Assembly: GCA_947454395.1 (NCBI GenBank)
Contig: CANGLG010000004.1
Span: forward strand, 1-33,038
Length of the DNA: 33,038 nucleotides
Source: Flavobacteriales bacterium
Lineage (GTDB): Bacteria > Bacteroidota > Bacteroidia > Flavobacteriales_D > Crocinitomicaceae
Direction: 5' to 3'
In this document: one piece after another, positions 4,930 to 25,801 of the stretch
How the letters are laid out: every line of letters begins with the position of its first letter
How positions within the stretch are numbered: the first letter of the stretch is position 1
The notes under the pieces: generated by a model
What the model saw: the letters and a program-made list of their open reading frames with translations, nothing else
Told to the model about the DNA's origin: nothing
The model's database searches: none
Program-made: the position numbers and the translations under genes

Positions 4930-4961
4930 TTTATTAATGTTCTTGTCGAATTAAAGAGACT

Positions 4962-7900: not shown

Positions 7901-8168
7901 AGAAGCAAGAGTTGTAGGTGATGGAGAGTTCGCAACAGCATGTTCTGATTCTTGTCCTACAAATGCAATCATAGTTGGAGATTGGAATGATGTTAATTCC
8001 ATAATTCGTAAAAGTTCAGATGACAACAGAGCATATCAGGCTCTTGAGGAAGTGGGAGTGAAACCAAACGTATGGTATAAAGTAAAAGTTAGAAACGAAG
8101 AGAATAGTTTATTAAATAAACTACAAGTTGTTGAGGAAGTAGCAGAAAATAAAAAAGCAGGTCATTAA
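4962..8168 (+). CDS. actB: Alternative Complex III subunit ActB (molybdopterin oxidoreductase-like plus iron-sulfur domains)
   Basis: 1068 aa with a Tat-like TARRDFLKFLGFSVAAATLAAC segment and C-terminal ferredoxin-type Cys clusters (CIGCGSCLIAC, CHHCNHAPCETVCP, CIGTRYCANNCP, CSFCVQR, CSDSCP). Confidence 0.93.
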   Translation: MGITRKYWKGIEELKQTPEFIKHKEQEFPNQQTIEEFLSDDKLAETSTARRDFLKFLGFSVAAATLAACEAPVTKAVPYVVKPENVTPGMPTWYASTYYDGYSYASILVKTREGRPIFIKGNKEYGFTKGGVNPQVIASVLGLYDSERLSGPLANKKSTSWSNVDKEITSAIKSAKKVTLLSNTLISPSLNRVISEMATALNGESGSKFEHIQYDAVSYSAIREANLKSFGASIIPGYDFSKAKTVVSIDADFLNSWLLPTEFAVQYGLTRNPDSKWMSKHFQFESILSVSGSNADYRGMVKPSELAGVLSYLIKGLGGSTSVSATIPASAKLAADEAIKSLKKSGKESLIVCGSNNVGLQILTNKLNNLLNAYGTTLDLTNTIELFKGDDHQVQKFVKDVVSGKGPEVLLMLGVNPVYSLPNGDAFGKALSNIKTTVSFASHEDETASLVKYICPDHHALEGWNDYKPKANHFAIAQPTIRPLHNTASALESLLVWNGKAQRGGKDSAVAYDYMAATFATQVPGADFAFTTHNSCTELATTSTALVYKDASVSNLPKSNDKEVVLYQKAGIGIGLQANNPWLQELPDPISKVTWDNYITMNPVTMENDGYATTYDQEHGLNLATVTVNGKSVTLPVYPLPGQAIGTIGIALGYGRGANGEKIGKAAFQTKEYGGYETENGKPKAIGANVYGFVSTVNGNIEYYNSAKIEKASGEYSIAATQIHHTVMGRHSIVRETTLGIYTSKDKEAYNPAHKLEKLNKEGEHEKRPMKEFDLWDAHPVEKIGHRWGMTVDLSSCIGCGSCLIACQSENNVPVVGKDEVRRGREMHWLRIDRYFSSDEEAAVGTRKDKETFSYDKAEDAAENPKVVHMPMMCHHCNHAPCETVCPVAATTHSNEGLNQMAYNRCIGTRYCANNCPYKVRRFNWFNYPSYKKFTEINPAQDDLGRMVLNPDVTVRTRGVMEKCSFCVQRIQATKLSAKKEARVVGDGEFATACSDSCPTNAIIVGDWNDVNSIIRKSSDDNRAYQALEEVGVKPNVWYKVKVRNEENSLLNKLQVVEEVAENKKAGH

Positions 8169-8188
8169 TCGAAAAATAAAAATTTGTA

Positions 8189-9577
8189 ATGCAAAAGGAA
8201 GCAGTAATTAGAGAACCCCTCATTTTAGGTCATAAGACTTATCATGACATTACGGAAGATGTTTGTCGTCCTATAGAAGACAAAGCTCCTAAAATGTGGT
8301 ATATTCTATTTGGAATAGCCCTTATTATTGGACTTTATGGTGTTGGAAGTATTTGTTATCTATTAGGAACAGGTATCGGTGTTTGGGGATTGAATAAAAC
8401 AATAGGTTGGGCTTGGGATATTACCAATTTCGTATGGTGGGTAGGTATCGGTCACGCTGGAACATTAATTTCTGCAGTTTTGTTGTTGTTCCGTCAAAAA
8501 TGGAGAATGGCAATTAACCGTTCCGCGGAGGCGATGACTATTTTTGCTGTATTCATGGCTGGTTTATTTCCATTAATTCACATGGGACGTTTATGGGTGG
8601 GTTATTGGGTTCTTCCAATTCCAAACCAATTTGGGTCATTGTGGGTGAATTTTAACTCACCATTGTTGTGGGACGTATTTGCAATTTCAACTTATTTATC
8701 GGTATCATTAGTATTCTGGTACATTGGTTTGATTCCAGATTTTGCTACAATTCGTGATAGAGCAAAAAAACCTTTATCGAAAAAAATGTATTCTATTTTA
8801 GCATTCGGTTGGTCTGGAAGAGCAAAACATTGGAATCGTTTTGAATTAGTTTCATTGGTATTAGCTGGTTTGGCGACACCTCTTGTATTCTCAGTTCACT
8901 CCATTGTATCTTTTGACTTTGCTACCTCTGTAATTCCTGGATGGCACACAACAATTTTTCCTCCTTATTTTGTTGCTGGAGCGGTATTTTCAGGTTTTGC
9001 GATGGTACAAACGCTTTTATTGATTATGCGTAAAGCAATGGGTCTTGAGGCTTATATTCATACTAAGCACGTTGAATATATGAATATTGTAATCATGGTT
9101 ACTGGCTCTATAGTTGGTACAGCCTATATTACAGAGTTATTTATTTCTTGGTATTCTGGAGTAGAATATGAAGCGTATGCTTTCATTAATAGAGCTACTG
9201 GTCCATACTGGTGGGCATATTGGTCAATGATGACATGTAACGTAATTTCTCCGCAATTAATGTGGTTCAAACCTTTAAGAAGAAGTTTACTATTTACGTT
9301 TTTCATTTCTATTGTTGTAAATATCGGGATGTGGTTTGAGCGTTATGTTATTATCGTAACATCAATACACAGAGATTACTTACCAGCAGCATGGAGTATG
9401 CACTATCCAAGTCATATTGATATTGCAGTTTATGTGGGTACTATTGGGCTGTTCTTTGTATTTTTCTTATTGTTTGCTCGTTTCTTCCCAGTATTGGCTT
9501 TGAATGAAGTAAAAACAATTTTGAAAGGTTCAGGACAATCTTACAAAGAATCACCAGACTATCACGAACATCATTAA
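8189..9577 (+). CDS. actC: Alternative Complex III subunit ActC (NrfD/PsrC-like quinol-interacting membrane subunit)
   Basis: 462 aa, multi-TM NrfD-like protein (WVGIGHAGTLISAVLLLFRQKWR...); operon position. Confidence 0.93.
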   Translation: MQKEAVIREPLILGHKTYHDITEDVCRPIEDKAPKMWYILFGIALIIGLYGVGSICYLLGTGIGVWGLNKTIGWAWDITNFVWWVGIGHAGTLISAVLLLFRQKWRMAINRSAEAMTIFAVFMAGLFPLIHMGRLWVGYWVLPIPNQFGSLWVNFNSPLLWDVFAISTYLSVSLVFWYIGLIPDFATIRDRAKKPLSKKMYSILAFGWSGRAKHWNRFELVSLVLAGLATPLVFSVHSIVSFDFATSVIPGWHTTIFPPYFVAGAVFSGFAMVQTLLLIMRKAMGLEAYIHTKHVEYMNIVIMVTGSIVGTAYITELFISWYSGVEYEAYAFINRATGPYWWAYWSMMTCNVISPQLMWFKPLRRSLLFTFFISIVVNIGMWFERYVIIVTSIHRDYLPAAWSMHYPSHIDIAVYVGTIGLFFVFFLLFARFFPVLALNEVKTILKGSGQSYKESPDYHEHH

Positions 9578-9582
9578 TATAA

Positions 9583-10125
9583 ATGAATATGTCAGATAAA
9601 GTAATTTATGTAATGTACGACGATGACGGAGCGCTTAAAGATGGTGCTAAGAAACTCGTTGCAAAAGGAGTAAAAATTAATGAGGTTTTTTCTCCATTTC
9701 CAATTCATGGAATCGATCCAATTATTGGTGTAAAAAATACGCGATTAGGAATAATGTCATTTTTATATGGTTTGACAGGTTTGACATTGGCAACAATTGG
9801 AATGAGATATTTCATGGTTGTGGACTGGCCTATGAACATTGGTGGCAAACCTAATTTCACTTATTTAGATAATATTTTAGCATTTATTCCAATAAGTTTC
9901 GAGTTTACAGTTTTGTGTGCGGCTCATGGTATGGCAATAACATATTTATTGAGAAATAAGACTCTACCTGGAATGCCTGCTCAAAATCCTGATCCAAGAA
10001 CAACCGATGATAAATTTGTTATGGAGATTAGATTGAGTGAAAATCATTCTATTTCTGAAGATGAAATTGATAGTCTTCTGAAAGAAACTGGCTATTTAGA
10101 ATTGGATAAGAAAGAAGTAAAATAA
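9583..10125 (+). CDS. actD: Alternative Complex III subunit ActD (DUF3341)
   Basis: 180 aa with two TM segments and the ActD-like pattern VFSPFPIHGID; operon position. Confidence 0.9.
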   Translation: MNMSDKVIYVMYDDDGALKDGAKKLVAKGVKINEVFSPFPIHGIDPIIGVKNTRLGIMSFLYGLTGLTLATIGMRYFMVVDWPMNIGGKPNFTYLDNILAFIPISFEFTVLCAAHGMAITYLLRNKTLPGMPAQNPDPRTTDDKFVMEIRLSENHSISEDEIDSLLKETGYLELDKKEVK

Positions 10126-10133
10126 GATTTCAA

Positions 10134-10883
10134 ATGAAAAAACATTTATACTCGATACTCGGATTTTCTTCAGTTGCATTTTCAATGTTACTGTTGGGGT
10201 CTTGTAAATCAGATGCAGATAGTTCTGGATTTGAATATATGCCAGACATGTATCGTTCGCCGGCAATTGAAGCTTATGTTGATTATGGTGAGGTTCGTGG
10301 AAAACAAAATAAGGATTTGAAATTGGCTCTTTCTGCCATGACTCCACCAAAGAATACAATTCCTTACATGGCAGGAAAAGATTCTGCAGAAGTTAAATTC
10401 ATGCTTCCTCATTTTAGAAAACCGAATGTGGCTTTTAGAGAAACACACGGTTTGTATGGTTTTGATGTTTCAACTGCCGATGAATATCTTCTAGCTGCAA
10501 ATGATAAAAATCCTTTGACACTTAATGCAAAAAATGCTGAAGAAGTATTAAAAAAGGGAAAAGAATTATTTACTGCGATGTGTCAGCATTGTCACGGTGA
10601 AAAGGGTGACGGAAACGGTCCAATGGTTGCAAGTGGTGCATACGTAGGAGTACCTAATTATGCTACTCTAACAAACCTGTCTGATGGGCAAATTTTCTAT
10701 TCAATTTACTATGGTAAAGGTATGATGGGTTCTCATGGTTCAATTTTGAATAAAAAAGAAATTTGGACTTTGGTTCATTACGTTCGTCAGTTCCAGAATA
10801 AGGATTATGGCAAATTTGATCCAACTGGAAAACCAATGGCCTTAGTATCAGCACCTGTTGATTCAACAAAAATGAAACCTTAA
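10134..10883 (+). CDS. actE: Alternative Complex III subunit ActE, monoheme cytochrome c lipoprotein
   Basis: 249 aa with lipobox LLLGSC and one heme motif CQHCH; operon position. Confidence 0.9.
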   Translation: MKKHLYSILGFSSVAFSMLLLGSCKSDADSSGFEYMPDMYRSPAIEAYVDYGEVRGKQNKDLKLALSAMTPPKNTIPYMAGKDSAEVKFMLPHFRKPNVAFRETHGLYGFDVSTADEYLLAANDKNPLTLNAKNAEEVLKKGKELFTAMCQHCHGEKGDGNGPMVASGAYVGVPNYATLTNLSDGQIFYSIYYGKGMMGSHGSILNKKEIWTLVHYVRQFQNKDYGKFDPTGKPMALVSAPVDSTKMKP

Positions 10884-10892
10884 TAAAATAGT

Positions 10893-12083
10893 GTGATGGA
10901 ATTTCAGATAAATAAGAAAGCAAAAAATGTAGTTTTTACTCTTATTGGGGTTGGTTTACTACTTACTATAGTTGGAATCGCAACAGGAATGGGCGATCAT
11001 CACTTTAAAACAAGATTGTTAACGAATGGATTAATCAATGGATTTTTCTTTTTCGCACTTGGTTTAGGTGCTTTGTTCTTTTTAGCATTACAATACGCAA
11101 CCGAGACGGGGTGGTATGCATCAGTAAAAAGAGTAATTGAGGCTGTCGCAGGATTTTTACCATATGGAATGGCCTTTTTTGGACTAGTTTTATTGGTAAT
11201 TACAATCATGGACGGTGCACACATTTATTTATGGATGGATGCAGATATCGTTAAGGAAGATGAAATAATTCGAGGTAAATCAGGATTTTTAAATCCGGCA
11301 TTTTTCTGGATAAGAACCTTAGTTTATTTTGCAACATATTTTTTATTCTTACGTGGATTTAAGAAGCGTTCATTATTAGAGGATAAAGTAGGAGGTACAG
11401 ATCTACATTTTACAAATTATAAAAGAGGTGCTTTATTTTTAGTTTTCTTCGCAGTTTTTAGTTCTACTTCGGCATGGGATTGGTTAATGTCAATTGATGT
11501 ACATTGGTTTTCAACTTTATTTGGATGGTATACTTTTGCTGGAATGTGGTGTTCAACTATGGTTGTTCTTGTATTAACAACACTATATTTGAAAAAATTA
11601 GGTTATTTGGAAAAAGTAAATGAGTCACACATACATGATTTAGGTAAATGGACATTTGCTACATCTTTTCTTTGGTCCTATTTATGGTTTTCTCAATTTA
11701 TGTTGATATGGTATGCTAATATCGGTGAAGAGGTTACTTACTATCAAATGAGAATAGAAAACTTTAAGGTTTTATACTTTGCTATGTTTGTTATCAATTT
11801 TGCTTTCCCAATGTTGCTCTTAATGTCTAGAGATGCAAAAAGACATGCAGGTATTTTGACGATAGTAGGGTTAATTATACTTACTGGTCATTGGGTTGAT
11901 GTATATATTATGGTATCAGCTGGCTCTCTTGGAGCAAATGCTAAAATTGGCTTCTTGGAGGTTGGTATGGCTTTATTAATAGCAGGTTCGTTTATTTTTG
12001 TAGTATTACGAAACTTGACAAAGGCGCCATTAACACCAGTTAATCACCCATTCCTGGATGAAAGTATTCACCACGAAATTTAA
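10893..12083 (+). CDS. actF: Alternative Complex III subunit ActF (quinol:cytochrome c oxidoreductase membrane subunit)
   Basis: 396 aa, polytopic ActF/ActC-like protein; operon position. Confidence 0.9.
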   Translation: MMEFQINKKAKNVVFTLIGVGLLLTIVGIATGMGDHHFKTRLLTNGLINGFFFFALGLGALFFLALQYATETGWYASVKRVIEAVAGFLPYGMAFFGLVLLVITIMDGAHIYLWMDADIVKEDEIIRGKSGFLNPAFFWIRTLVYFATYFLFLRGFKKRSLLEDKVGGTDLHFTNYKRGALFLVFFAVFSSTSAWDWLMSIDVHWFSTLFGWYTFAGMWCSTMVVLVLTTLYLKKLGYLEKVNESHIHDLGKWTFATSFLWSYLWFSQFMLIWYANIGEEVTYYQMRIENFKVLYFAMFVINFAFPMLLLMSRDAKRHAGILTIVGLIILTGHWVDVYIMVSAGSLGANAKIGFLEVGMALLIAGSFIFVVLRNLTKAPLTPVNHPFLDESIHHEI

Positions 12084-12106
12084 TAACGATATATTCAATA
12101 ATTGAG

Positions 12107-13345
12107 ATGGAAAATAAATTAATTATTCTTTTAGTAATCATATTAGGAGCTATTGCAATAGCTCAATTGGTGAGAGTTTATGAGCTTTCGTCAAAAATGA
12201 GAAAAACTGGAGAGCATGAGGTAAGCAGTCGAGACAATAATTTGAATGCTAAATTGTTACTTGGTTTTGTGATTTCTCTTTTTGCAAGCTTTGTTTACCT
12301 TATGGTTGAATATGGTTGGACTGGTCGTGGTGTTGCTGCATCAACTCAAGGTCAAGAGATAGACTGGTTATTAAATTTAAATTTAGTTATCGTAATAGCA
12401 GTATTCTTTTTGACTAACTTCTTGTTGTTCTTTTTTGCATACAAATATGTTAAAAGACCTGGTGTACCTGCTTTTTATTATCCTCACAACAACAAATTAG
12501 AAATGCTTTGGACGGTTGTTCCAGCATGTGTTCTTGCTGTTATAATTATTCTAGGATTAAAGAGTTGGAATAATTTAACTGGGGAGTCACCAGAAGATGC
12601 TATTAGAGTAGAATTGTTTTCAAAACAATTTGATTGGACAGCACGTTACGCTGGAAAAGATAATATCCTAGGAAAATACGATTATAAGTTGACAACGGAT
12701 AATAATGAACTTGCATTAATGACAACAAACACAATCGATTCATCTATTCGGTTAATGATTGAAGGGCCAAATGGTATAAAGAATATTCAGAAAGTATTGA
12801 ACAAAAGAGATACCGTATTGTCTGATTCAGTAACAGGAGTACTTAAAACAGATTTATCTAGAAAAGAAAGACTTTTGCGTTTGTTAGTACAAATGAAGAA
12901 TAATCATTCAAAAGGAGTTGATAATTATGCTTGGGATGATATTATTCAAAAAGACACCTTAGTATTATGTAAAGGTAAAGACTATGAATTTAATTTTAGA
13001 TCAAAGGATGTAATTCACTCAGCTTATTTCATGCATTTTAGAGCACAGATTAACACGGTTCCAGGTATGACGACAAGAACGAAGTTCAAGCCAATTTACA
13101 CAACAGAAGAAATGCGCGAAAAGATGAATGATTCTAAATTTAACTACATTTTAATGTGTAACAAAATTTGTGGAGGTGCGCATTACAAAATGAAAATGAT
13201 AGTTGTGGTTAAAAATGAAGTAGATTATAAGTCTTGGATGGCTTCAAAAGCAAAAGAAACTTTCAAAGATAAGTATTTTCCAGCAGTTGCTCCTATGGCT
13301 GCAGCAGCACCAATGGCTGATACAACGAAAACAATAAGTAAATAA
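12107..13345 (+). CDS. coxB: cytochrome c oxidase subunit II
   Basis: 412 aa with two TM segments and the CuA motif CNKICGGAHYKM (Cx3Cx3Hx2M). Confidence 0.95.
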   Translation: MENKLIILLVIILGAIAIAQLVRVYELSSKMRKTGEHEVSSRDNNLNAKLLLGFVISLFASFVYLMVEYGWTGRGVAASTQGQEIDWLLNLNLVIVIAVFFLTNFLLFFFAYKYVKRPGVPAFYYPHNNKLEMLWTVVPACVLAVIIILGLKSWNNLTGESPEDAIRVELFSKQFDWTARYAGKDNILGKYDYKLTTDNNELALMTTNTIDSSIRLMIEGPNGIKNIQKVLNKRDTVLSDSVTGVLKTDLSRKERLLRLLVQMKNNHSKGVDNYAWDDIIQKDTLVLCKGKDYEFNFRSKDVIHSAYFMHFRAQINTVPGMTTRTKFKPIYTTEEMREKMNDSKFNYILMCNKICGGAHYKMKMIVVVKNEVDYKSWMASKAKETFKDKYFPAVAPMAAAAPMADTTKTISK

Positions 13346-13366
13346 TAGAAATAAAAAATATATAAA

Positions 13367-15175
13367 ATGGCTTCAGTAGCACACGAAGGACACGCACACG
13401 AGCATCATGGTGACCACCACCACGAAGAAACGTTTGTATCAAAGTATATTTTCAGTCAAGACCATAAAATGATTGGAAAACAGTTTTTAATAACTGCTGT
13501 ATTTATGGGTATTGTAGCTATGATATTGTCAATTCTATTTAGAATTCAATTGGCATATCCTGGAGAGAGTTCTGATTTCTTAAGTTTCTTTTTAGGTGAG
13601 AAATGGGCTCCGAATGGTGTGCTAAGAGAAGATATGTATCTTGGTCTAGTTACGATTCATGGTACTATCATGGTATTTTTTCTTTTGACAGGTGGTTTGT
13701 CAGGGACTTTCTCTAATTTGCTAATTCCATTACAAATTGGTGCTAGAGATATGGCATCAGGTTTTCTAAACATGTTATCGTATTGGTTCTTTTTCCTTTC
13801 ATCTGTTTTAATGCTTGTTTCTCTTTTCGTAGAGAATGGTCCAGCGATGGCAGGATGGACAATTTATCCTCCTCTATCAGCACTACCTCAGGCAGTCCCA
13901 GGATCTGGATTAGGAATGACGCTTTGGTTGTTTTCAATGGCTATTTTTATTGCGGGTTCATTAATTGGTTCATTGAACTATATAGTTACAGTTTTGAACC
14001 TAAGAACGACTGGAATGACCATGACAAGAATGCCTCTAACTGTTTGGGCTTTCTTCGTTACTGCAATCTTGGGTGTGTTATCATTCCCTGTTTTACTTTC
14101 TGCTGCCTTATTGTTAATCATGGATAGATTAGCTGGTACAAGTTTTTATTTATCTGACATTATCGTTGGAGGAGAAATGCTTGCTAACCATGGTGGTTCA
14201 CCAATTTTATTCCAGCATTTATTTTGGTTTCTTGGTCACCCGGAGGTATACATTGTATTATTACCGGCATTAGGACTATCATCTGAAATTATAGCAACGA
14301 ATGCAAGAAAACCAATCTTTGGTTATAAAGCGATGATAGGCTCAATTTTGGCAATTGGATTTTTATCCTTTATAGTTTGGGGTCACCATATGTTTGTAAC
14401 AGGGATGAATCCTTTCTTAGGCAGTGTTTTCGTATTTACTACATTACTTATTGCAATTCCTTCAGCAGTGAAAGTGTTTAATTATTTAACAACATTGTGG
14501 AAAGGTTCACTTATTTTCACTCCAGCAATGTTATTTGCTGTAGGTTTAGTTTCTACATTCATTACGGGTGGTGTTACAGGTATTATTTTGGCTGACTCAG
14601 CATTAGATATTTCAATTCATGATACTTATTTTGTTGTTGCTCACTTTCACATAGTAATGGGTATGTCGGCTGTTTTTGGAATGTTTGGTGGTGTTTATCA
14701 TTGGTTTCCAAAAATGTATGGAAGAATGATGAATACACGTCTTGGTTATGCTCATTTTTGGATAACTCTAGTTGGCGCTTATGGTGTATTTTTCCCGATG
14801 CATTTTGTTGGATTAGCAGGAGCACCAAGAAGATATTATGATTATTCTGTTTATAATGAATTTAATTCAGGTTCACTTGAACAAATTATGAATTTAAATG
14901 AGATAATAACCATTTTCGCAATTATTGCTGCTTTGGGTCAAATTCTATTCTTGTTTAATTTCTTCTATAGTATTTATCGTGGTCCTAAAGCACCTCAAAA
15001 TCCTTGGAATTCGAATTCATTAGAATGGACAACTCCAGTTGAACATGTTCATGGAAACTGGCCTGGTGAATTACCAACGGTTCATAGATGGCCTTATGAC
15101 TATTCTAAGCCAGGGTCGGATACAGATTTTATTCCTCAAAATGTTCCTCTAAAAGATGGAGAAGAAGAACACTAA
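13367..15175 (+). CDS. coxA: cytochrome c oxidase subunit I (A-family heme-copper oxidase)
   Basis: 602 aa with GHPEVY, IWGHHMF-like and HDTYFVVAHFHIVMGM motifs and a K-channel-like SAVKVFNYLTTLWKG. Confidence 0.97.
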   Translation: MASVAHEGHAHEHHGDHHHEETFVSKYIFSQDHKMIGKQFLITAVFMGIVAMILSILFRIQLAYPGESSDFLSFFLGEKWAPNGVLREDMYLGLVTIHGTIMVFFLLTGGLSGTFSNLLIPLQIGARDMASGFLNMLSYWFFFLSSVLMLVSLFVENGPAMAGWTIYPPLSALPQAVPGSGLGMTLWLFSMAIFIAGSLIGSLNYIVTVLNLRTTGMTMTRMPLTVWAFFVTAILGVLSFPVLLSAALLLIMDRLAGTSFYLSDIIVGGEMLANHGGSPILFQHLFWFLGHPEVYIVLLPALGLSSEIIATNARKPIFGYKAMIGSILAIGFLSFIVWGHHMFVTGMNPFLGSVFVFTTLLIAIPSAVKVFNYLTTLWKGSLIFTPAMLFAVGLVSTFITGGVTGIILADSALDISIHDTYFVVAHFHIVMGMSAVFGMFGGVYHWFPKMYGRMMNTRLGYAHFWITLVGAYGVFFPMHFVGLAGAPRRYYDYSVYNEFNSGSLEQIMNLNEIITIFAIIAALGQILFLFNFFYSIYRGPKAPQNPWNSNSLEWTTPVEHVHGNWPGELPTVHRWPYDYSKPGSDTDFIPQNVPLKDGEEEH

Positions 15176-15222: not shown

Positions 15223-15579
15223 CAGTGCGTTAAACAAGCGAAATCCATGGCTACACATTAAGTTGAAGCAATTTGGTGGTCATTTTGGCATCGCTGATAA
15301 AATGAAATAGTGTTACAGACCTGAAAAAGGTATTAGTTAACGATTTTTTAATTTAAATTATTCATACAACTTAACATTTGATAAATCCATCCGTTTAGCA
15401 ACTGAAAAAAACATTTTCACATTTGGAATCTCTTTCCTGCTGGTTCGAGTGGGAGATTATAATTAGTATCAAATAATTTCTTGGTTTTAATCTTGTTTTC
15501 GAATTCATAGAAAATCAATTTTGATAATTATGAATTTGATTCTCATATGTTATTAAATTATTAAGAAAAGAGTATAATA

Positions 15580-15623
15580 CTTAATACAACCTTAACTTTT
15601 CATTAATTCGAGGATTACTTTTC
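15580..15623 (+). promoter_or_regulatory. four tandem 11-bp repeats (NTTAAY-core), Pho-box-like operator
   Basis: CTTAATACAAC / CTTAACTTTTC / ATTAATTCGAG / GATTACTTTTC in contiguous 11-bp register, upstream of the TonB-dependent receptor gene. Confidence 0.5.
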
Positions 15624-15658
15624 AATCGTTTCTTTGCAGCATATTTAAAGCAAAACAA

Positions 15659-18508
15659 ATGATTAAAAAAACTTCATTTTTATCCCTTATTTTTCTTCTT
15701 ATTACACTTTCTTTTTATAGTCAATCGGGGAGAATAACCGGTGTTGTAAAAGACAAAAGCTCAAATGAATTAATTTTTGGAGCAAAAATAGTAGTTAAGG
15801 GTCAAACAGGAATTGGTGCTGTTACAGATCCGGACGGAAAGTTTATTATTGAAAATGTTAAATCAGGGTCAATAATTCTTGAAATAAAATACGAATCATA
15901 CAAAACGCTGACTTTAGAAGCGTTTGAATTGAAAGCATCAGAAAATAAAGAAATTAGTATTGAAATTGAGAAATTAATCAAGGATTTTAAAAACGTTACA
16001 GTAACAAAAAAAGTAAATAAAGAGTCAACAACAGAGTTGATTCGAATGCAAAAGAATAGCGCCACTGTAGTTGATGGTATTAATGCGGAAACATTCAAAA
16101 AAACCCCAGATTCAAAAGCTTCAGACGTATTAAAAAGAATTTCTGGAGCAAGCGTACAGGATAACAAATTCGTTGTAATTCGTGGATTAAGTGATCGTTA
16201 CAACTTTGCTTTGTTAAATGGAGCGTCTTTACCAAGTTCTGAAAGTGATCGCAAAGCATTTTCATTTGATATCTTCCCTTCAAACATGCTTGATAACTTA
16301 TTTATTACCAAAACCGCTACTCCTGAATTGCCAGGTGAATTTGCAGGAGGGGTTATTGACATTAATACAACTGAACCAAAAGAAAAGAATTTTCAAAATA
16401 TTCAAATAGGTGGCGCGTATAATGCGATTTCAACCTTTAGAAATTTTAAAACCTATGTTGGTGGTAGCACAGACTTCTTAGGCATAGGTGCCTCTGCAAG
16501 AGCTTTACCGGATGGACTTCCAACAACTGAGGTTTTTAATACAATTTCAAACACCGAAAAAGCTGACTACGCTAAAATGATAAAATCAGACTGGTCAACA
16601 TCAAATCGCATGGCGCTTCCCAATTTAAGTTTACAATACTCCATTGGAAGAATGATTAAGTTAAAAGAGAAAAGACAGTTTGGATATGTTTTCGCATACA
16701 GCTATCAAAACAATTTTTCATTCAGTCAAGTAACGAGGAGAGAATTTGAAGAGCAAGCAGCTGGAATTGTCACTAAAAATGAATTGAAAGATTCCGCTTA
16801 CACGCAATCTATTCTGAATAGTGCCATGTTTAATTTGTCATATAGTTTCAATGAAAAAAATAAAATTCAATTCAAAAATCTATATTCCATTTCAAGTGAT
16901 GACAAAGTGAATATTAGAAACGGAAAACGTGACATGGACATAGAGTCAATGTATTCAGAAAAGTCTACCAATATCTGGTACACGCAAAATAACTTATATA
17001 CAACTCAGCTACTTGGTAATCACGAATTAAAAAACAAATTAAAATTCAAATGGGTTGGTTCTTTTAGCGATGTTAAAAGAGAAATTCCTTTTCTTAGAAG
17101 AACCGTTTATCAACAAACTGATACGGCTTATCCTTTTGCAGCAGTTATCCAAAATAATGACATAAGTACACTTGGTGCAGGAAATATGTTCTGGTCTACA
17201 ATGAATGAGAAAATTTATAATGCAAAATATGATTTCTCTTATCCTTTTGAGTTTAGTAAATTAAAAAATGAAATAAAACTTGGAGGATTTCATCAATATA
17301 GAACGAGAACGTTTGCTGCTAGAAACCTAGGTTTTTCAAAGTATAACCCCGCTGGAAGTGCAAACTTCAATGGGTCTTTGTTAACATTGCCTGATGATCA
17401 GATTTTTGCCCCTGAAAACATGGGGTTGATGTCTGATGGTCAAGGAGGCTTTAAATTAGAAGAAGGTACAAACGTAGATGATAGTTACCAAGCAAGTTCA
17501 TTTCTAAATGCTGGATTTCTTCAGTTGGACAGCAAAATTGCTGATAAAGTTAGATTGGTTGGAGGGGCACGCCTAGAAGCTTACAATCAATTATTCAAAT
17601 ACATTGAATTCGGTTCGAATTTACCTCAGCGTATTGATACAACTGTTGTCGATTTATTGCCGTCAATCAATTTGATTTATTCGCCAATCGTTAAAATGAA
17701 CATAAGAGCAAGTTACTCTAAAACAGTTTCTCGCCCAGAATTTAGAGAATTGGCTCCTTTCTCATTTTATAACTTTTTGAATGACAACCTTACTTCTGGA
17801 GACCCACATTTACAAAGAGCAAAAATCAACAACTATGATTTGAGATTTGAATTTTTCCCTGGTTCAGGGCAAATTATTAGTTTATCTGGTTTTTACAAAC
17901 AATTTTACAATCCAATCGAATTAATTTTAAGAACAGGAACTTCAGGAACGCCTGAATTGTATTTTGATAACGTAGGAAATGTAGTGAACTATGGTGCTGA
18001 ATTCGAATATAGAATGAATTTAGGCTTCCTTAATTCTAAAGACAGCGCTTCATTCTTAAAAGATATCACGCTATATTTTAATGGAGCATTGATTCGTTCA
18101 AAAATGGACTTGAGTGCATTAGCAGGTCAAGCGGAGTATCCAAATGCCTCTAGACCACTACAAGGTCAGTCACCTTACCTCATAAATGCTGGAATTTTCT
18201 ATGCAGCTCCAAATGACTTAAATTTTAATTTATCATACAATTTAGTTGGACAAAGAATTGCAATTGCAGGTAGTGTTCAAGAACCTAGCGTATGGGAAAA
18301 TGGAAGAAATGTAATTGATTTTCAAATCTCAAAAATTATTAAAAAGAAATTTGAAATCAAATTGAATGTAAAAGACATTATCGCTCAGGATTTGGTGTTC
18401 TTTCAGGACATAAACAAAAACAAAAAATACGACAAGGGAATTGACAGTGCATGGCAAGAAATTACATTTGGACAAACTGTTTCTTTATCCTTGAAATACA
18501 ATTTCTGA
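15659..18508 (+). CDS. TonB-dependent receptor with N-terminal carboxypeptidase-regulatory-like domain
   Basis: 949 aa with signal peptide, GRITGVVKDKSSNELIFGAKIVVKGQTGIGAVTDPDGKF domain, plug (IRGLSDRYNFALLNGASLPSSE) and a C-terminal beta-strand ending in F. Confidence 0.93.
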   Translation: MIKKTSFLSLIFLLITLSFYSQSGRITGVVKDKSSNELIFGAKIVVKGQTGIGAVTDPDGKFIIENVKSGSIILEIKYESYKTLTLEAFELKASENKEISIEIEKLIKDFKNVTVTKKVNKESTTELIRMQKNSATVVDGINAETFKKTPDSKASDVLKRISGASVQDNKFVVIRGLSDRYNFALLNGASLPSSESDRKAFSFDIFPSNMLDNLFITKTATPELPGEFAGGVIDINTTEPKEKNFQNIQIGGAYNAISTFRNFKTYVGGSTDFLGIGASARALPDGLPTTEVFNTISNTEKADYAKMIKSDWSTSNRMALPNLSLQYSIGRMIKLKEKRQFGYVFAYSYQNNFSFSQVTRREFEEQAAGIVTKNELKDSAYTQSILNSAMFNLSYSFNEKNKIQFKNLYSISSDDKVNIRNGKRDMDIESMYSEKSTNIWYTQNNLYTTQLLGNHELKNKLKFKWVGSFSDVKREIPFLRRTVYQQTDTAYPFAAVIQNNDISTLGAGNMFWSTMNEKIYNAKYDFSYPFEFSKLKNEIKLGGFHQYRTRTFAARNLGFSKYNPAGSANFNGSLLTLPDDQIFAPENMGLMSDGQGGFKLEEGTNVDDSYQASSFLNAGFLQLDSKIADKVRLVGGARLEAYNQLFKYIEFGSNLPQRIDTTVVDLLPSINLIYSPIVKMNIRASYSKTVSRPEFRELAPFSFYNFLNDNLTSGDPHLQRAKINNYDLRFEFFPGSGQIISLSGFYKQFYNPIELILRTGTSGTPELYFDNVGNVVNYGAEFEYRMNLGFLNSKDSASFLKDITLYFNGALIRSKMDLSALAGQAEYPNASRPLQGQSPYLINAGIFYAAPNDLNFNLSYNLVGQRIAIAGSVQEPSVWENGRNVIDFQISKIIKKKFEIKLNVKDIIAQDLVFFQDINKNKKYDKGIDSAWQEITFGQTVSLSLKYNF

Positions 18509-18536: not shown

Positions 18537-18580
18537 GTTAATAAACATTTAACGAAGACTTAAGGTCTCTGTAACGCAAC
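18537..18580 (+). promoter_or_regulatory. four tandem 11-bp repeats (NTTAA-core), Pho-box-like operator
   Basis: GTTAATAAACA / TTTAACGAAGA / CTTAAGGTCTC / TGTAACGCAAC in contiguous 11-bp register, upstream of the T9SS protein gene. Confidence 0.5.
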
Positions 18581-18629
18581 CAGCAGAATTCTGATTGAAA
18601 TTTGCATCGTAAAATAAAAAATAATAAAA

Positions 18630-21200
18630 ATGAAGAAAATTTACACCTTAGTTGCTTCTATATGTTTAGGAATGAGCCTAAACGCACAAGATGCATTTTG
18701 GACGCCTGTTAATTATAAAGGAGCTTTTCCTGTAACGGACAACACAACAGCGACAGACTGGTCATCAGGATGGTCAAATTTTGACGCTGAAAACACAGTT
18801 TATCCTGCCACCACAACAACCGTCTCTACAGATATTACAAGCAATGTTACATGGAGTGGAGTGATTTTATTGCAAAATAAAATTTATGTAAAAAATAATG
18901 CAACCTTAACTATAGCACCTGGGACTATAATTCGTGGCGATAAAGCAACACAAGGATCATTAATTGTAACTAGAGGAGCAAAGTTAAATGCAATTGGAAC
19001 TGTCAATCAACCTATTATTTTTACTTCCAATGAAGCTGTAGGAAATAGAAATGAAGGTGACTGGGGAGGAGTTGTTTTATTAGGTTTAGCAAGAAATAAC
19101 CAACCAGGTGGAGTTGCAAATATTGAAGGAATTGTGGCAACAACAGACACACAATACGGAGGTAATTTTGACAATGATAATTCTGGAACAATCAAATATA
19201 CTCGCATTGAGTTTGCAGGAATTGCTTTGGAGCCTAATAAAGAAATTAATGGACTTACTTTTGGTTCGGTAGGTTCAGGAACAACTATTGATTATGTTCA
19301 AGTTTCTCACTCAGGTGATGACTCATTTGAATGGTTTGGTGGAGCAGTAAATTGCAAACATATTATTGCATATCGTGGATTAGATGATGATTTTGATACG
19401 GACTTCGGTTTCAGAGGTAAAGTTCAATTTGCTTTAGCAATTAGAGATAAGGATGTTTCTGATGCGATTGGAGATTCAAATAGTTTCGAATCAGATAATG
19501 ATGCTGCTGGATCAACAGGACAACCAAAAACAGCAGCAATCTTTTCCAATGTAACCCTTGTAGGTCCAAAAGGAAATGGTTCAATTTCTCTTCCGACTGG
19601 TGAAAAATTTGAAAAAGCATTTCGTTTAAGAAGAAATACAGCTGTATCTTGCTTTAATTCTTTGGTAACAGGTTGGGAAAAAGGTCTGTCAATTGAAGGG
19701 ACGGCTGTAGTAAATAACGTCACTGGTGATACGCTTGTATTTTCAAATAACATGTTAACAAATTTCGCAACTCCTTCATGGGCTACAACCAATACAAATA
19801 CTGTTTATAATGCAGGAACAAGTGGTGGTGCAGCCTCTGATGCTGCTTTTTATGCCTCTTTTTGGAGTGCGGATGGCAACGACTCTACATCTACATTGGC
19901 TCAAGTAAATTGGGTAAATATTTTTGCTCCACTAGGAACTACTCCAGATGCAAGGCTTGCTTCAGGTTCAGTTGTTGGAACTGGAGCATCGTTTACAAAT
20001 CCTAAATTCTTTAGTGTACTTGCTCCAAGTGTTTCTACAAATACATTTACATATTGTCAATATGCAACAGCAGCTGCATTGTCTGCTACAGCTTCTACTG
20101 GTAATACACTTTCTTGGTATGACGTAGCTACAGGTGGAACTGCATTATCTGGTGCTCCAACGCCAAGTACATCTTCACCTGGTTCCTATTCTTATTATGT
20201 AAGTCAAAAAAATTCAAATGGTGATGAGAGCCCAAGGGTAGCAATTACAGTTACTGTTAACGCGTTGCCATCAACACCAGTTATTTCTGCAAACGGTCCT
20301 ACTTCATTCTGTACAGGTAGTAACGTGGTATTATCTTCATCTTCAACAACAGGAAATACTTGGTCAACAAGTGCAACTACGCAAGATATTACAGTAACGT
20401 CTAATGGTACTTATTCGGTTGTCGTTACAGATAATAATTCTTGTTCATCTACTTCGAATAGCATAACAGTCAACGTAAGTAATGCGCCTGTCCCAACTGT
20501 TAGCGCAACTGCAACACAAGCTTGTTCAGGTGACTCAGTAATTCTTACTTCTTCTATTGCAGATTCTTACTTATGGTCAAATGGTGATACAACACAAACA
20601 ATTACTGTTTCAGCTAACGGAAATTATACTGTAACAACAACGAATACTGACGCTTGTAACGGAGTTGGTACATCTTCTCCTGTCGCAGTTTCTTTCACAA
20701 CTTCTCCTATTGCAAATGGTGCTTTCACAACGAATGGAAACATAGTTAATTTTACAAACAGTTCATCAAATGCAACAAGTTATTCTTGGGACTTTGGAGA
20801 TTTCACAAATTCTTCGGCCAATGCTCCAACACATGCGTATGCAGCTAATGGAAACTATAATGTAGTTTTAACTGCAATCAATGGAAATTGTACGGATACG
20901 GCTTCTTTTACAATAGCAATTACAGTTAGCCTAGAAGAATTAATGGGTCTTTCTGAATTAAACATTTTCCCGGTTCCTGCAAGCGAGTACATTAAAGTAG
21001 CTTTTAACGCGAGCAACAATGAATTAATTCAAGTAGAAATGCTTGATGAATTGGGAAGAATTCTTTCAAGTGAATCATTCAATAACCAAGGAAATAATTC
21101 AACAGTAATTAATTTGAATAATATATCAAATGGAATTTATTTCATTCGATTGAATTCAAATGATAAAACAGTTTCCAAAAAAGTTATTGTAAACAAATAA
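18630..21200 (+). CDS. T9SS type A-sorted secreted protein (beta-helix-like N-terminus, Ig-like/PKD repeats)
   Basis: 856 aa with signal peptide, TLTIAPGTIIRGDKATQGSLIVTRGAKLNAIGT..., PKD-like FTNSSSNATSYSWDFGD, and C-terminal LNIFPVPASEYIKVAF...GIYFIRL...KKVIVNK sorting domain. Confidence 0.9.
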   Translation: MKKIYTLVASICLGMSLNAQDAFWTPVNYKGAFPVTDNTTATDWSSGWSNFDAENTVYPATTTTVSTDITSNVTWSGVILLQNKIYVKNNATLTIAPGTIIRGDKATQGSLIVTRGAKLNAIGTVNQPIIFTSNEAVGNRNEGDWGGVVLLGLARNNQPGGVANIEGIVATTDTQYGGNFDNDNSGTIKYTRIEFAGIALEPNKEINGLTFGSVGSGTTIDYVQVSHSGDDSFEWFGGAVNCKHIIAYRGLDDDFDTDFGFRGKVQFALAIRDKDVSDAIGDSNSFESDNDAAGSTGQPKTAAIFSNVTLVGPKGNGSISLPTGEKFEKAFRLRRNTAVSCFNSLVTGWEKGLSIEGTAVVNNVTGDTLVFSNNMLTNFATPSWATTNTNTVYNAGTSGGAASDAAFYASFWSADGNDSTSTLAQVNWVNIFAPLGTTPDARLASGSVVGTGASFTNPKFFSVLAPSVSTNTFTYCQYATAAALSATASTGNTLSWYDVATGGTALSGAPTPSTSSPGSYSYYVSQKNSNGDESPRVAITVTVNALPSTPVISANGPTSFCTGSNVVLSSSSTTGNTWSTSATTQDITVTSNGTYSVVVTDNNSCSSTSNSITVNVSNAPVPTVSATATQACSGDSVILTSSIADSYLWSNGDTTQTITVSANGNYTVTTTNTDACNGVGTSSPVAVSFTTSPIANGAFTTNGNIVNFTNSSSNATSYSWDFGDFTNSSANAPTHAYAANGNYNVVLTAINGNCTDTASFTIAITVSLEELMGLSELNIFPVPASEYIKVAFNASNNELIQVEMLDELGRILSSESFNNQGNNSTVINLNNISNGIYFIRLNSNDKTVSKKVIVNK

Positions 21201-21216
21201 TTATTAAAACAATAAG

Positions 21217-21247
21217 AGGCTGTCAGGCATAATGTCTGACAGCCTTT
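21217..21247 (+). terminator. Rho-independent terminator after the T9SS gene
   Basis: AGGCTGTCAG(GCA TAA TGT)CTGACAGCCTTTTT. Perfect 10-bp stem extended by further pairs, then a T-tract. Confidence 0.85.
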
Positions 21248-21261
21248 TTAATAAATCTAAC

Positions 21262-21951
21262 ATGCAAAACTTAAAAGGACATACCATACTTCTAGTCGAT
21301 GATGAACCGGATATCCTAGAGTTTTTGTCGTACAACATTAGAAAAGAAGGGTATAAAGTTTTTACGGCTTCTAATGGTGAAGAAGCGGTCCGATTAACGC
21401 AACAAATAAATCCTTCTTTGATCCTTCTGGATGTAATGATGCCAAAAATGGATGGTATCGAAACATGTCAAATTATTAGAAAAGATTTGAATTTAACTCA
21501 ACCAATTATTGCTTTCTTAACATCGAGAGCGGAAGATTATGCACAAATTGCGGGTTTTGAAGCAGGTGCAGATGACTACATCACAAAGCCAATTAGACCC
21601 CGTTTGTTACTCAGTAAAATAGAATCACTTTTGAGAAGATTGGAAAAGTCAACCGTTATTCAAACCTCAAGTGGTGAGAAATTAATAAAAATTGACAGGG
21701 AAACATACACAGTAAAGATTGAAAATACTCAATTACTGTTGCCTAAAAAAGAATTTGAGTTACTTGAATTGCTAGCAAGTCGCCCTGGAAAAGTTTTTAA
21801 CCGTGAACAAATTTTAGCAATCGTCTGGGGAAATGAAACCATAGTTGGTGAGAGAACAATAGATGTTCACATTAGAAAATTGCGTGAAAAACTAGGAGAT
21901 GATTATATTCGTACTATAAAAGGAGTCGGATATACCTTCAACGAAAAGTGA
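21262..21951 (+). CDS. phoB: PhoB/OmpR-family response regulator (start corrected from 21232)
   Basis: Receiver domain (LLVDDEPDILEFL, LLDVMMPKMDGIE, FLTSR, KPIRP) plus winged-helix output domain (GERTIDVHIRKLREKLGDDYIRTIKGVGYTF). ATG21232 lies inside the terminator hairpin, so Met at 21262 is the likelier start. Confidence 0.85.
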   Translation: MQNLKGHTILLVDDEPDILEFLSYNIRKEGYKVFTASNGEEAVRLTQQINPSLILLDVMMPKMDGIETCQIIRKDLNLTQPIIAFLTSRAEDYAQIAGFEAGADDYITKPIRPRLLLSKIESLLRRLEKSTVIQTSSGEKLIKIDRETYTVKIENTQLLLPKKEFELLELLASRPGKVFNREQILAIVWGNETIVGERTIDVHIRKLREKLGDDYIRTIKGVGYTFNEK

Positions 21952-23021
21952 GAAACAGCAGACCTAGCATTTTAATTCTTTACGGAAGTCTGGCATTTTC
22001 AGTCATTAGTTTGCTCTTTGCAATTATTGTCAGTCAATTTTTTGTACCCTTAAAGCCTTATTTACTAATTGCAATTCCTTTAATTTCAGGTGCATCTGCT
22101 TATGCAATCTTTTATTTTTTACTAAAAAACTTTATCTATAATAGACTTTATTTAATCTACCGTTCGATTCAAACGAATCAGGAAAATCAAACTCAACAGA
22201 ATAAATCAATTGACGCCATGATAGAAAGTGCAGAAAGCGATGTAAAAATCTGGAAAGAAGACAGAAATACGGAAATAGAAAAACTCAAAGAGCAAGAACA
22301 ATTCAGACGTGAATTCTTAGGAAATTTAGCACACGAATTAAAAACACCAGTTTTTTCTATTCAAGGATATATTCTTACACTTCTAGAAGGCGGTCTAGAA
22401 GATGAAAATGTCAATCGTGCATTTTTAGAGCGAGCGAACAAGGCAACTGACAGAATGGTAAACATTTTGGAAGATTTGGACCAAATAACAAAACTTGAAG
22501 TTGATGAGTTTAAACTTGAAATGCGTTCTTTTGATATTGTCGATTTAATTAGAGAAACGTTTGATGCACTTGAATTTTCTGCCAACAATAAACAAATTAA
22601 ACTTCGTCTTAAAAAGGATTACAACCCGATATATGTAAATGCAGACCGTCCAAAAATCGGTCAGGTTCTCACTAATCTGATAAACAATTCGATAGCGTAT
22701 GGAAATGAAGCGGGCAAGTCAGAAGTAAGTATTCTTGTGTTTGAAAATTTGGTTACGATCGAAATAACGGACAATGGTCCAGGTATTGAATCTAAACATA
22801 TTCCTCGTCTTTTTGAACGGTTTTACCGAGTTGAAAAAAGTAGAAATCGAAATGAAGGAGGGTCTGGACTTGGATTGTCAATTGTGAAACATATTTTAGA
22901 ATCTCACGGCCAGGCAATTAATGTTAGAAGTACATTCGGAAAGGGAAGTACATTTAGTTTTAGTCTTGAAAAAAGCGCCATTTCAGGACCAGTAAGTTCA
23001 AGAGGTATTCCGCTGAAGTAA
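21948..23021 (+). CDS. phoR: sensor histidine kinase, PhoR-like
   Basis: GTG start overlapping the phoB stop. Two TM helices with almost no periplasmic loop, H-box FLGNLAHELKTPVFSIQGY, N-box NLINNSIAYG, G-boxes DNGPGI and GGSGLGLSIVKHI. Confidence 0.85.
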   Translation: MRNSRPSILILYGSLAFSVISLLFAIIVSQFFVPLKPYLLIAIPLISGASAYAIFYFLLKNFIYNRLYLIYRSIQTNQENQTQQNKSIDAMIESAESDVKIWKEDRNTEIEKLKEQEQFRREFLGNLAHELKTPVFSIQGYILTLLEGGLEDENVNRAFLERANKATDRMVNILEDLDQITKLEVDEFKLEMRSFDIVDLIRETFDALEFSANNKQIKLRLKKDYNPIYVNADRPKIGQVLTNLINNSIAYGNEAGKSEVSILVFENLVTIEITDNGPGIESKHIPRLFERFYRVEKSRNRNEGGSGLGLSIVKHILESHGQAINVRSTFGKGSTFSFSLEKSAISGPVSSRGIPLK

Positions 23022-23173: not shown

Positions 23174-25801
23174 ATGAAAGTACTAAAAATTCAAGCGCTT
23201 CGTGGTCCAAATATCTGGAGCATTACAAGAAAAAAATTAATTCAAATGCGACTTGACCTCGAAGATCTAGAAGAAAAACCTACAAATAAAATTCAAGGAT
23301 TTCGTGAACGAATAGAAAAACTTCTTCCTTCACTTATTGAACACAGATGCTCAGAAGGCTGCCGCGGTGGTTTTTTTCAACGAGTAGAGCGTGGAACTTG
23401 GATGGGGCATGTAATCGAGCACATTGCACTTGAAATCCAAACACTTGCTGGAATGGATGTTGGTTTTGGTCGTACAAGAGAAACTAAAACACCTGGTGTT
23501 TACAATGTGGTTTTCAACTACATTGAAGAAAAAGTTGGTCTATATGCCGCAGAAGCCGCAGTAAGAATTGCAGAAGCTTTAATTTCTGGGCAAGACTATG
23601 ACATGCAACACGACATTCAAAAAATGAAAGAAATTCGTGAGGATGTTCGCCTTGGACCAAGTACCGGAAGTATCGTTGACGACGCAGTTGCAAGAGACAT
23701 TCCTTGGATTCGACTTGGAACCAATTCCCTAATTCAATTAGGCTACGGTGTTAATCAAATGCGTTTTCAAGCAACGATAACTTGTAAAACGAGTAACATT
23801 GCCGTAGACATCGCATGTAACAAGGAGCAAACTAAAAAAATGCTAGATGCCGCCTCAATTCCCGTGGCGAAAGGCTCTATTTGTGTAGACGAAGAAGATC
23901 TTGAAAACACAATAAAATCGATTGGTTATCCAATTGTTATTAAACCGTTGGATGGAAATCATGGAAAAGGTGCGTCTATTAACGTAACCAATTGGGAAGA
24001 TGCGGTTGCAGGTCTTGAATATGCAAAAAAATATTCTCGAAGAGTTATCGTTGAAAAATTTATCACCGGCTTCGACTTCCGAGTTTTGGTTATTGACAAT
24101 AAGGTAATTGCAGCAGCTCAGCGTGTTCCTGCCCATGTTGTTGGAAATAATAAAGATTCGATTCAAACGCTAATAGACGAAACAAATAAGGATCCGAGAC
24201 GCGGTTACGGTCACGAAAACGTATTGACTGAAATTACAGTTGATCGCGATACAATGGAACTGTTGGAAAAGATAAATTATACGCTTGAAACTGTTCCATC
24301 TCATGGAGAAATTGTTTATCTAAAGTCGACAGCAAACCTCAGTACTGGTGGAACTTCAATCGATGTTACCGACTTAATGCACCCAGAGAATGTGTTCATG
24401 GCTGAGCGAATTTCACGCGTAATTGGATTGGACATTTGTGGAATTGACATCATGGCTGCAAATCTTACAGAATCGTTGAAAGAAAATGGAGGCGTAATTT
24501 TGGAAGTAAATGCTGCACCTGGATTCAGAATGCACTTGGCTCCTTCAGAAGGTTTACCGCGTAACGTTGCTGCTCCAGTGATTGACATGCTTTATCCTCC
24601 AGGGAAACAATCACGCATTCCGATTATTGCTGTTACAGGAACAAATGGAAAAACAACAACAACCCGTTTAATTTCACATATCGTTAAAAATAACGGTTAC
24701 CGAGTTGGATTCACAACTTCAGATGGAATCTATATTCAAAATCACATGATGGAAAAAGGTGACACTACCGGTCCAATGAGTGCTGAATACATTTTGAAAG
24801 ATCCAAATGTGGAATTTGCGGTTTTAGAAACAGCTCGAGGTGGAATTTTGCGTTCCGGTCTAGGTTTCAGTCGTTGTGATATTGGTGTAATTACCAATAT
24901 TCAAGAGGATCACCTTGGTATTAGCGACATTCATGACCTAAAAGATCTTTCTCGCGTGAAATCTGTAGTGGTTGAAAGTATTAAAAAGGATGGATGGGCA
25001 GTTTTGAATGGTGAAGATGAAAATTGCTTGGAAATAGCAGAAAATCTCCGTTGTAATGTAGCGTTATTTAGTATGGATGAAAATTGTCCTGCGATTGTAG
25101 AGCATTGTAAAAACGGAGGAATTGCTGCAATCTATGAAAACGGATTCATCACCATCAAGAAAGGTGACTGGAAGTTTAGAGTTGAGCGCGCTACGCATAT
25201 TCCGCTTACGATGAACGGAAAAGCAAAGTTCATGATATACAATGTTCTAGCGGCAACTCTTGCTTCTTACTTGTATGGATTTAAAACGGAAGACATCAAA
25301 CTTTCATTGGCGACTTTCCTTCCGGGAGCAGCACAGACACCTGGAAGAATGAACATTTTTGAATTTTCGAAATTCAAGGTGATGATCGACTTTGCGCATA
25401 ACCCGAATGGATACCGTGGAATTGAAGATTTCTTGAAATCCGTTGAGGCAACTAGAAAGATTGGAATCATTTCCGGGGTTGGAGATCGCAGAGACGAAGA
25501 CATCAAAGAATGTGCTCGTATTGCAGCCCGAATGTTTGATCATATTGTAATAAGACAAGAAAAACACCTCAGAGGCAGAACCGAACAGGAGATTATTGAT
25601 TTGATTTTGGAAGGAATCAACGAGTCGAATACGAATGTAACCTATGAAGTTGTTACACTCGAGACAGAGGCTATCAAGCACGCTATTTCGATTGCTGAGG
25701 AAGGAACGTTTATTACCGCATTAAGCGATGTAATTGATAATGCGATTGATATTGTGCAAGATTATTTGGATGCAGAGATTGAACAGGGAGCAATATCTTA
25801 A
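23174..25801 (+). CDS. cphA: cyanophycin synthetase
   Basis: 875 aa with ATP-grasp domain followed by a Mur-ligase-like domain with P-loop GTNGKTTTTRL; CphA-typical N-terminal segment. Confidence 0.93.
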   Translation: MKVLKIQALRGPNIWSITRKKLIQMRLDLEDLEEKPTNKIQGFRERIEKLLPSLIEHRCSEGCRGGFFQRVERGTWMGHVIEHIALEIQTLAGMDVGFGRTRETKTPGVYNVVFNYIEEKVGLYAAEAAVRIAEALISGQDYDMQHDIQKMKEIREDVRLGPSTGSIVDDAVARDIPWIRLGTNSLIQLGYGVNQMRFQATITCKTSNIAVDIACNKEQTKKMLDAASIPVAKGSICVDEEDLENTIKSIGYPIVIKPLDGNHGKGASINVTNWEDAVAGLEYAKKYSRRVIVEKFITGFDFRVLVIDNKVIAAAQRVPAHVVGNNKDSIQTLIDETNKDPRRGYGHENVLTEITVDRDTMELLEKINYTLETVPSHGEIVYLKSTANLSTGGTSIDVTDLMHPENVFMAERISRVIGLDICGIDIMAANLTESLKENGGVILEVNAAPGFRMHLAPSEGLPRNVAAPVIDMLYPPGKQSRIPIIAVTGTNGKTTTTRLISHIVKNNGYRVGFTTSDGIYIQNHMMEKGDTTGPMSAEYILKDPNVEFAVLETARGGILRSGLGFSRCDIGVITNIQEDHLGISDIHDLKDLSRVKSVVVESIKKDGWAVLNGEDENCLEIAENLRCNVALFSMDENCPAIVEHCKNGGIAAIYENGFITIKKGDWKFRVERATHIPLTMNGKAKFMIYNVLAATLASYLYGFKTEDIKLSLATFLPGAAQTPGRMNIFEFSKFKVMIDFAHNPNGYRGIEDFLKSVEATRKIGIISGVGDRRDEDIKECARIAARMFDHIVIRQEKHLRGRTEQEIIDLILEGINESNTNVTYEVVTLETEAIKHAISIAEEGTFITALSDVIDNAIDIVQDYLDAEIEQGAIS

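Follow-up and report, generated by a model that had tools for sequence, protein, structure and literature searches.

Phased TTAAY repeats before a TonB receptor, beta-helix protein, phoB and phoR operon of a Crocinitomicaceae bacterium: a probable Pho box

Results

The operon and the repeats in front of it

The window studied here is a stretch of 33,038 nucleotides from the metagenome-assembled genome (MAG) of a Flavobacteriales bacterium of the Crocinitomicaceae (assembly GCA_947454395.1, contig CANGLG010000004.1), and it holds an operon that runs, in order, from a TonB-dependent receptor through a surface beta-helix protein to phoB and phoR (Table 1). The regulator and the kinase both score below the curated cut-offs of their best models, the former with 203.2 bits against 296.2 and 205.1 against 270 (TIGR02154 / NF053854), and the latter with 246.3 against 400 (PnpS) and 229.4 against 334.2 (PhoR). 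The structure model of the beta-helix protein has a mean pLDDT of 73, and its fold resembles those of pectate lyases and tailspikes only weakly (E ~0.01). As read from translations, a long respiratory gene cluster (3583-15175), with cytochrome c and iron-sulfur proteins, membrane subunits and cytochrome oxidase subunits, lies directly upstream of the operon, and a cyanophycin synthetase-like gene (23174-25801) follows phoR.

Table 1. Features of the operon and of its two putative control regions, in window coordinates
Feature	Position	Strand	Basis or remark
Outlying half-site TTAAG	15561..15565	+	position -72, ~2 helical turns upstream of box; weak in window
Direct repeat 1, CTTAATACAAC	15580..15590	+	TTAAY at -52 from TTTG
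Direct repeat 2, CTTAACTTTTC	15591..15601	+	TTAAY at -41 from TTTG
Direct repeat 3, ATTAATTCGAG	15602..15612	+	TTAAY at -30 from TTTG
Direct repeat 4, GATTACTTTTC	15613..15623	+	position -19; degenerate in window and close relatives
Promoter -7 element, TTTCTTTG	15629..15636	+	5/6 conserved bases of TAHHTTTG
TonB-dependent receptor, 949 aa, first operon gene	15659..18508	+	Pfam PF00593, PF07715, PF13715
Second, weaker putative Pho box, 11-bp period	18538..18575	+	TTAAT 18538, TTAAC 18549, TTAAG 18560, GTAAC 18571
Candidate -7 element of second promoter, GAAATTTG	18597..18604	+	TTTG at 18601, 52 bp from repeat at 18549, as in main box
T9SS-exported surface protein, N-terminal beta-helix domain, termed ElpS/FII-like	18630..21200	+	sorting domain, structure model
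phoB-like response regulator (type A), proposed activator	21232..21951	+	best NCBIfam models: Bacteroides PhoB, general PhoB equivalogs
phoR-like histidine kinase, proposed sensor	21948..23021	+	best NCBIfam models: PnpS, PhoR

An earlier note on this DNA, made from the letters alone, had described four contiguous 11-mers from 15580 onward as a candidate Bacteroidetes Pho box. The four repeats are there with exactly those letters and positions (15580-15623); a weaker half-site, TTAAG (15561), lies upstream of them. The TTAAY core is complete in the first three repeats, and the fourth (ATTAC) is weak, as it is in relatives. The half-site of this box reads NTTAAY and is not the CTGTCAT of Escherichia coli. 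The TTTGCA that the note placed 53 bp after the first repeat was found at 15633-15638, 53 bp from 15580; its assignment to the -7 region fits the published Bacteroidetes consensus, the element proper being TTTCTTTG. The window has a single copy of the arrangement TTAAY-N6-TTAAY-N6-TTAAY in which a TTTG (15633) follows 30 bp past the third core. It holds one TTAAY triplet at 11-bp period, where simulation of 300 first-order Markov windows predicts 0.013; no simulated window contained a triplet followed by TTTG at this spacing.

A second box occupies the gap between the receptor gene and the beta-helix gene, in register with its own TTTG. It is the second-best match of the window to the weight matrix described below (17.6 bits) and is also found by the pattern with two mismatches; since a reversed control is equally frequent at two mismatches, only its position and its matrix score speak for it.

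Conservation in orthologous promoters

We gathered orthologues of the downstream receptor by protein similarity and measured their promoters from the TTTG, which is present in 41/41, 19-30 bp ahead of the ATG. The TTAAY core stands at -52, -41 and -30 in 34, 33 and 33 of the 41, respectively. The pattern itself had served to retrieve some of these promoters; among the 27 chosen by protein alone, with the window excluded, the counts are 20, 19 and 19. The 11-bp direct-repeat period is found in the letters of the window and in the orthologous promoters alike, and the register is conserved, as the earlier note had demanded of its reading. A looser additional TTAAY occurs at -72 to -74 in 21/41, with only scattered single sites elsewhere. 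Four loci, titled Chitinophaga pinensis, Chryseobacterium gleum and Sphingomonadales (L007, L009, L012, L015), encode receptors 61-72% identical to that of the window; these MAG labels look wrong, as the receptors are too close to a Crocinitomicaceae-like one.

The weight matrix was built from the 27 protein-selected promoters, without this genome. In the reduced matrix used below for gene sets, the base after TTAA stays a pyrimidine and the repeats keep their orientation, and the base following TTAAY is not conserved; among the orthologous promoters, the spacer letters vary and TTAAY stays constant. Scanned over the 33-kb window, the matrix gave 35.0 bits for the main box, 17.6 for the second site and 1.8 for the next best, while the best site per random window did not exceed 10 bits (20 random windows). 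As there are only two matches in the window, and each precedes a gene of this operon, we count this result in favor of a Pho box.

Distribution across genomes and target genes

The exact pattern TTAAY-N6-TTAAY-N6-TTAAY-N25-TTTG was counted against the same pattern read backwards, yielding 17 versus 0 in 60 genomes of the family, 85 versus 5 in 399 genomes of the order and 46 versus 2 in 393 genomes of the phylum. Many of the order matches trace to a single genus and a single orthologous gene, which would suit an AT-rich spacer arising by chance and kept merely through the close kinship of the orthologues. We regard this explanation as having almost no chance of being right, given that the same geometry precedes unrelated genes and appears in distant genomes, that the window has a second box and that spacer letters change around a constant TTAAY; the reversed-control counts largely refute it. 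Phased TTAA tracts might also represent intrinsically bent DNA or an UP-like element with no specific regulator, for which one could cite their helical phasing, their AT-richness and the AT-rich motifs at -18 and -28 of Flavobacterium johnsoniae promoters (PMC6847099). We hold this to be very improbable, too, given the conserved pyrimidine and orientation, the near-absence of the reversed pattern and the concentration of matches on one gene class rather than on strong promoters generally. Both ideas were rejected on the reversed-pattern controls and on target specificity.

The 85 distinct box contexts at loci of the family and order lie mostly before a receptor like that of the window (56) or before phoB (11); two precede a beta-helix gene, one the pstS of a pstSCAB-phoU operon and one a choice-of-anchor I protein, 12 precede other genes (two of them Porin_O_P, the phosphate-selective porin family) and two have no clear gene. 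The pstSCAB-phoU box belongs to one family genome. Outside the order, 14 of 44 boxes stand before TonB receptors (30-36% identity, a match that goes no further than the superfamily), four before a beta-helix gene, three before OprP-like porins and one, in a distant genome, before pstS; two precede metallophosphoesterases, one of them LpxH-like. In such distant genomes, the fourth repeat is often full (TTAAC/GTAAC), and the -7 element is often TAnnTTTG. Many matches outside the order precede genes without a clear phosphate link (sulfate-permease-like, outer-membrane-efflux-like and NeuB-like, from translations), and these may reflect chance or unknown targets. Boxes at four loci (L255, L257, L264, L272) precede a family of ~340-aa proteins, one of which has a weak match to CDP-glycerol glycerophosphotransferase, a possible sign of cell-surface or lipid remodelling under low phosphate. 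In one phylum match (L278), the order is receptor, box and lipoprotein.

For tests on gene sets, the matrix was reduced to the half-sites and TTTG, and the threshold was a 99% null. Promoters above it made up 32/39 for the beta-helix gene, 27/48 for phoB of type A (about six or seven of them fetched by the pattern), 2/5 for pstS, 4/24 for phoB of type B, 1/45 for phoR and 0/30 for PitA. On pst promoters, a simple mismatch count missed diverged boxes, and the matrix performed better. The pstS promoter of one genome (G037) has TTAAC repeats in a different arrangement that does not fit the box, and the pst promoters of three more (G015, G035, G043) showed nothing convincing. Across the genomes, the box lies upstream of phosphate-regulon genes (pst, phoB, porin, phosphatase), with pstS in part of them, and the enrichment upstream of phosphate genes anticipated by the earlier note is borne out at phoB, pstSCAB-phoU, porins O/P, metallophosphoesterases and the receptor/beta-helix pair. 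At the Bacteroidales loci tested, on Phocaeicola and Parabacteroides plasmids that carry a beta-helix gene of this kind, the box is absent, which makes a claim for the whole phylum too wide.

The test on the bacterium's own genome, which the note had also proposed, is thin. The pattern gave one exact match, one with one mismatch and five with two mismatches, two of the five being the second box. The MAG is incomplete (86%) and yielded no pst genes, so the boxes of the genome come down to the operon itself and a candidate at PitA and a porin. This candidate (L211, G000:C11:13000-19000, minus strand, ~4108-4170) consists of four 11-bp repeats, TTAAC/TTAAT/TTAAT/GTAAC, between divergent DUF47-PitA and OprP-like porin genes, with TATTTTTG at a distance ~3 bp shorter than that of the main box and a matrix score of 10.0 against a 99% null of 7.9.

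Which regulator reads the box

The genome encodes a second PhoB-like regulator, type B (contig C119), and the box might be real and yet read mainly by it, or by both regulators, with another main job for the PhoB/PhoR of the window. Type B is 53% identical to type A, its relatives are equally PhoB-like by NCBIfam and it adjoins the receptor in several family genomes. Further, the two could not be told apart by their recognition helix: the motif RTIDVHIRKL is the same, up to conservative changes, in 41/41 copies of type A and 14/14 of type B. Against a leading role for type B, which we consider rather unlikely, the receptor is linked to type A in this operon, and boxes precede type A in 27/48 cases and type B in 4/24, as autoregulation by type A predicts. 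Because boxes precede type A genes, autoregulation favors type A, and the putative box is most likely read by the PhoB of its own operon, possibly shared with the second regulator.

A third PhoB type occurs in the pst clusters of two genomes (G013 and G050; L195 12410-13132 and L196 1977-2687), with the helix motifs RTIDVHITRL/RTVDVHVTRL, and the promoters beside it carry in-phase half-sites of the form GTAAY. That the altered helix goes with GTAAY half-sites is a mere hint from these two genomes.

Discussion

The exact repeats, their fixed geometry, their conservation and the genes that they precede lead us to read the repeats as very probably the Pho box, or phosphate-starvation operator, of this bacterium, and as the local example of one found across much of the Bacteroidota; the candidate put forward in the earlier note is supported by the conserved register and by the enrichment before phosphate genes.

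The box lies just upstream of its promoter, in the fixed register of -52/-41/-30 from TTTG. Bacteroidetes promoters have the element TAHHTTTG, followed by 4-5 nt to the start, and a -33 element that is poor or absent (PMC6847099, PMC7366714); this spacing would put the transcription start at ~15640-15641, so that the repeats lie at about -60, -49, -38 and -27 and cover the -33 region. A conserved TTTG at -33 is absent from the promoters on which the matrix was trained. As the TTTG-type -7 element is kept and the -33 TTTG is not conserved, PhoB most likely substitutes for the -33 contacts. We infer phosphate as the signal and the following course of events. Upon phosphate limitation, PhoR would phosphorylate PhoB, and PhoB~P would line up head-to-tail along one side of the double helix, bound to the 11-bp direct repeats. 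The final repeats overlie -33/-28 of a promoter whose TTTG-type -7 element is retained. PhoB would then recruit RNA polymerase, as in E. coli Pho promoters, and turn on the receptor and, through its own second box, the surface beta-helix protein; phoB/phoR would also be switched on, in a positive feedback.

Among known operators, the nearest appears to be the Pho box of the cyanobacterial regulator SphR, with the half-site CTTAACCT, repeats of 8 bp plus 3 bp and at least three copies (PMC1906773). The two share 11-bp direct repeats in at least three copies, a nearly identical core (TTAAY), a place upstream of pst and phosphatase genes and a regulator of the PhoB family, a proposed one for the box here. 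They differ in phylum, in the fixed distance here to the TTTG-type -7 element of the Bacteroidota sigma factor and in targets, which here comprise the TonB receptor/beta-helix pair and phosphate porins. The base after TTAAY is not conserved in the box of the window and its relatives. The E. coli Pho box consists of two or more 11-bp repeats of CTGTCAT (PMC4415409), 10 bp above the -10 hexamer (PMC1906773). It resembles ours in its head-to-tail 11-bp repeats just above the promoter, in its targets (phoB, pst, phosphatase, porin) and presumably in most recognition-helix residues of its regulator, whereas here TTAAY replaces TGTCA, and the repeats stand 30/41/52 bp above TTTG. Given the resemblance to the cyanobacterial box, this kind of operator was already known; what is new, judging by the open-access papers searched, is its sequence, its geometry and its occurrence in this phylum. 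Expression studies have charted phosphate regulons in Bacteroidota (F. johnsoniae, PMC8115612), and Bacteroides fragilis PhoB binds a pst promoter fragment (PMC3547664), but we found no operator sequence for them in those papers.

The nearest data from the Bacteroidota themselves, and in agreement with the half-site, are those on Riemerella anatipestifer PhoP, whose DAP-seq motif is TTTAACA (PMC9603813). This regulator is likewise of the PhoB/PhoP type, recognizes a TTAAC core and binds a TonB receptor promoter; it was published as a virulence and redox regulator, and the passages of that source considered here do not describe a register of direct repeats, a promoter geometry or a set of phosphate genes under its control. 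Since the source likens TTTAACA to the ArcA motif and ties it to aerotolerance genes, and since the operon of the window adjoins respiratory-chain genes, the repeats could instead be the site of a non-phosphate regulator of the OmpR family, for example a redox or aerobic one with an ArcA-like TTAAY motif. This seems improbable to us, because what the box precedes across families is phoB, pstS, phosphate porins and phosphoesterases, because the receptor/beta-helix pair has low-phosphate-induced relatives and because the matrix scan gave no box near the respiratory genes of the window.

Such relatives occur in F. johnsoniae, where phosphate depletion strongly induces the phoBR cluster, PUS IV (Fjoh_0541-0549), raising its TonB receptor by ~8 and its pectin-lyase-like lipoprotein by ~10 log2 units (PMC8115612). 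Like the operon of the window, this cluster joins phoB/phoR with a TonB receptor and a pectin-lyase-like protein; unlike the T9SS substrate here, that protein is a lipoprotein. The main text of the study makes no mention of a Pho box (PMC8115612). In Caulobacter, ElpS, an extracellular low-phosphate-induced lipoprotein, is encoded beside the TonB receptor Cc0171; in contrast to the protein of the window, it is secreted by type II secretion, and the receptor there was reported as constitutive (PMC2996285). Our beta-helix protein may be akin to ElpS and to F. johnsoniae FI-FIII; it has a modelled beta-helix with weak fold matches, and its pairing with a receptor is found again in named genomes.

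Preferring, as we do, the Pho box reading, we see its meaning in several aspects. First, it offers a concrete sequence for a phosphate-starvation control site in Bacteroidota, and its fixed geometry would make phosphate regulons predictable from genomes and metagenomes of a phylum that is major in soil, lake and sea. Second, it draws attention to the TonB receptor/beta-helix pair as phosphate-scavenging proteins that are still uncharacterised. Third, it would provide a clean system for activator action with a sigma factor that reads TTTG/TAnnTTTG promoters. More tentatively, and as a conjecture that we think somewhat more apt to fail than to hold, much of the Bacteroidota may possess a rigid Pho operator of three to four TTAAY at 52/41/30/19 bp above TTTG. 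There, PhoB would take the place of the -33 contacts made by an unusual sigma factor, and whether a half-site begins with T or G would depend on two residues in the recognition helix of the PhoB paralogue (R-K with TTAAY, T-R with GTAAY).

Plasmids of named Hymenobacter, Aureibacter, Parabacteroides and Pseudoalteromonas also carry the receptor/beta-helix pair. On that of Hymenobacter sp. YIM 151858-1 (L321), box-like repeats of the GTAAY form lie before the TonB receptor, and box-like repeats also lie before a DNA/RNA endonuclease gene that adjoins the beta-helix gene; this gene group is plausibly a set for scavenging phosphate from nucleic acids.
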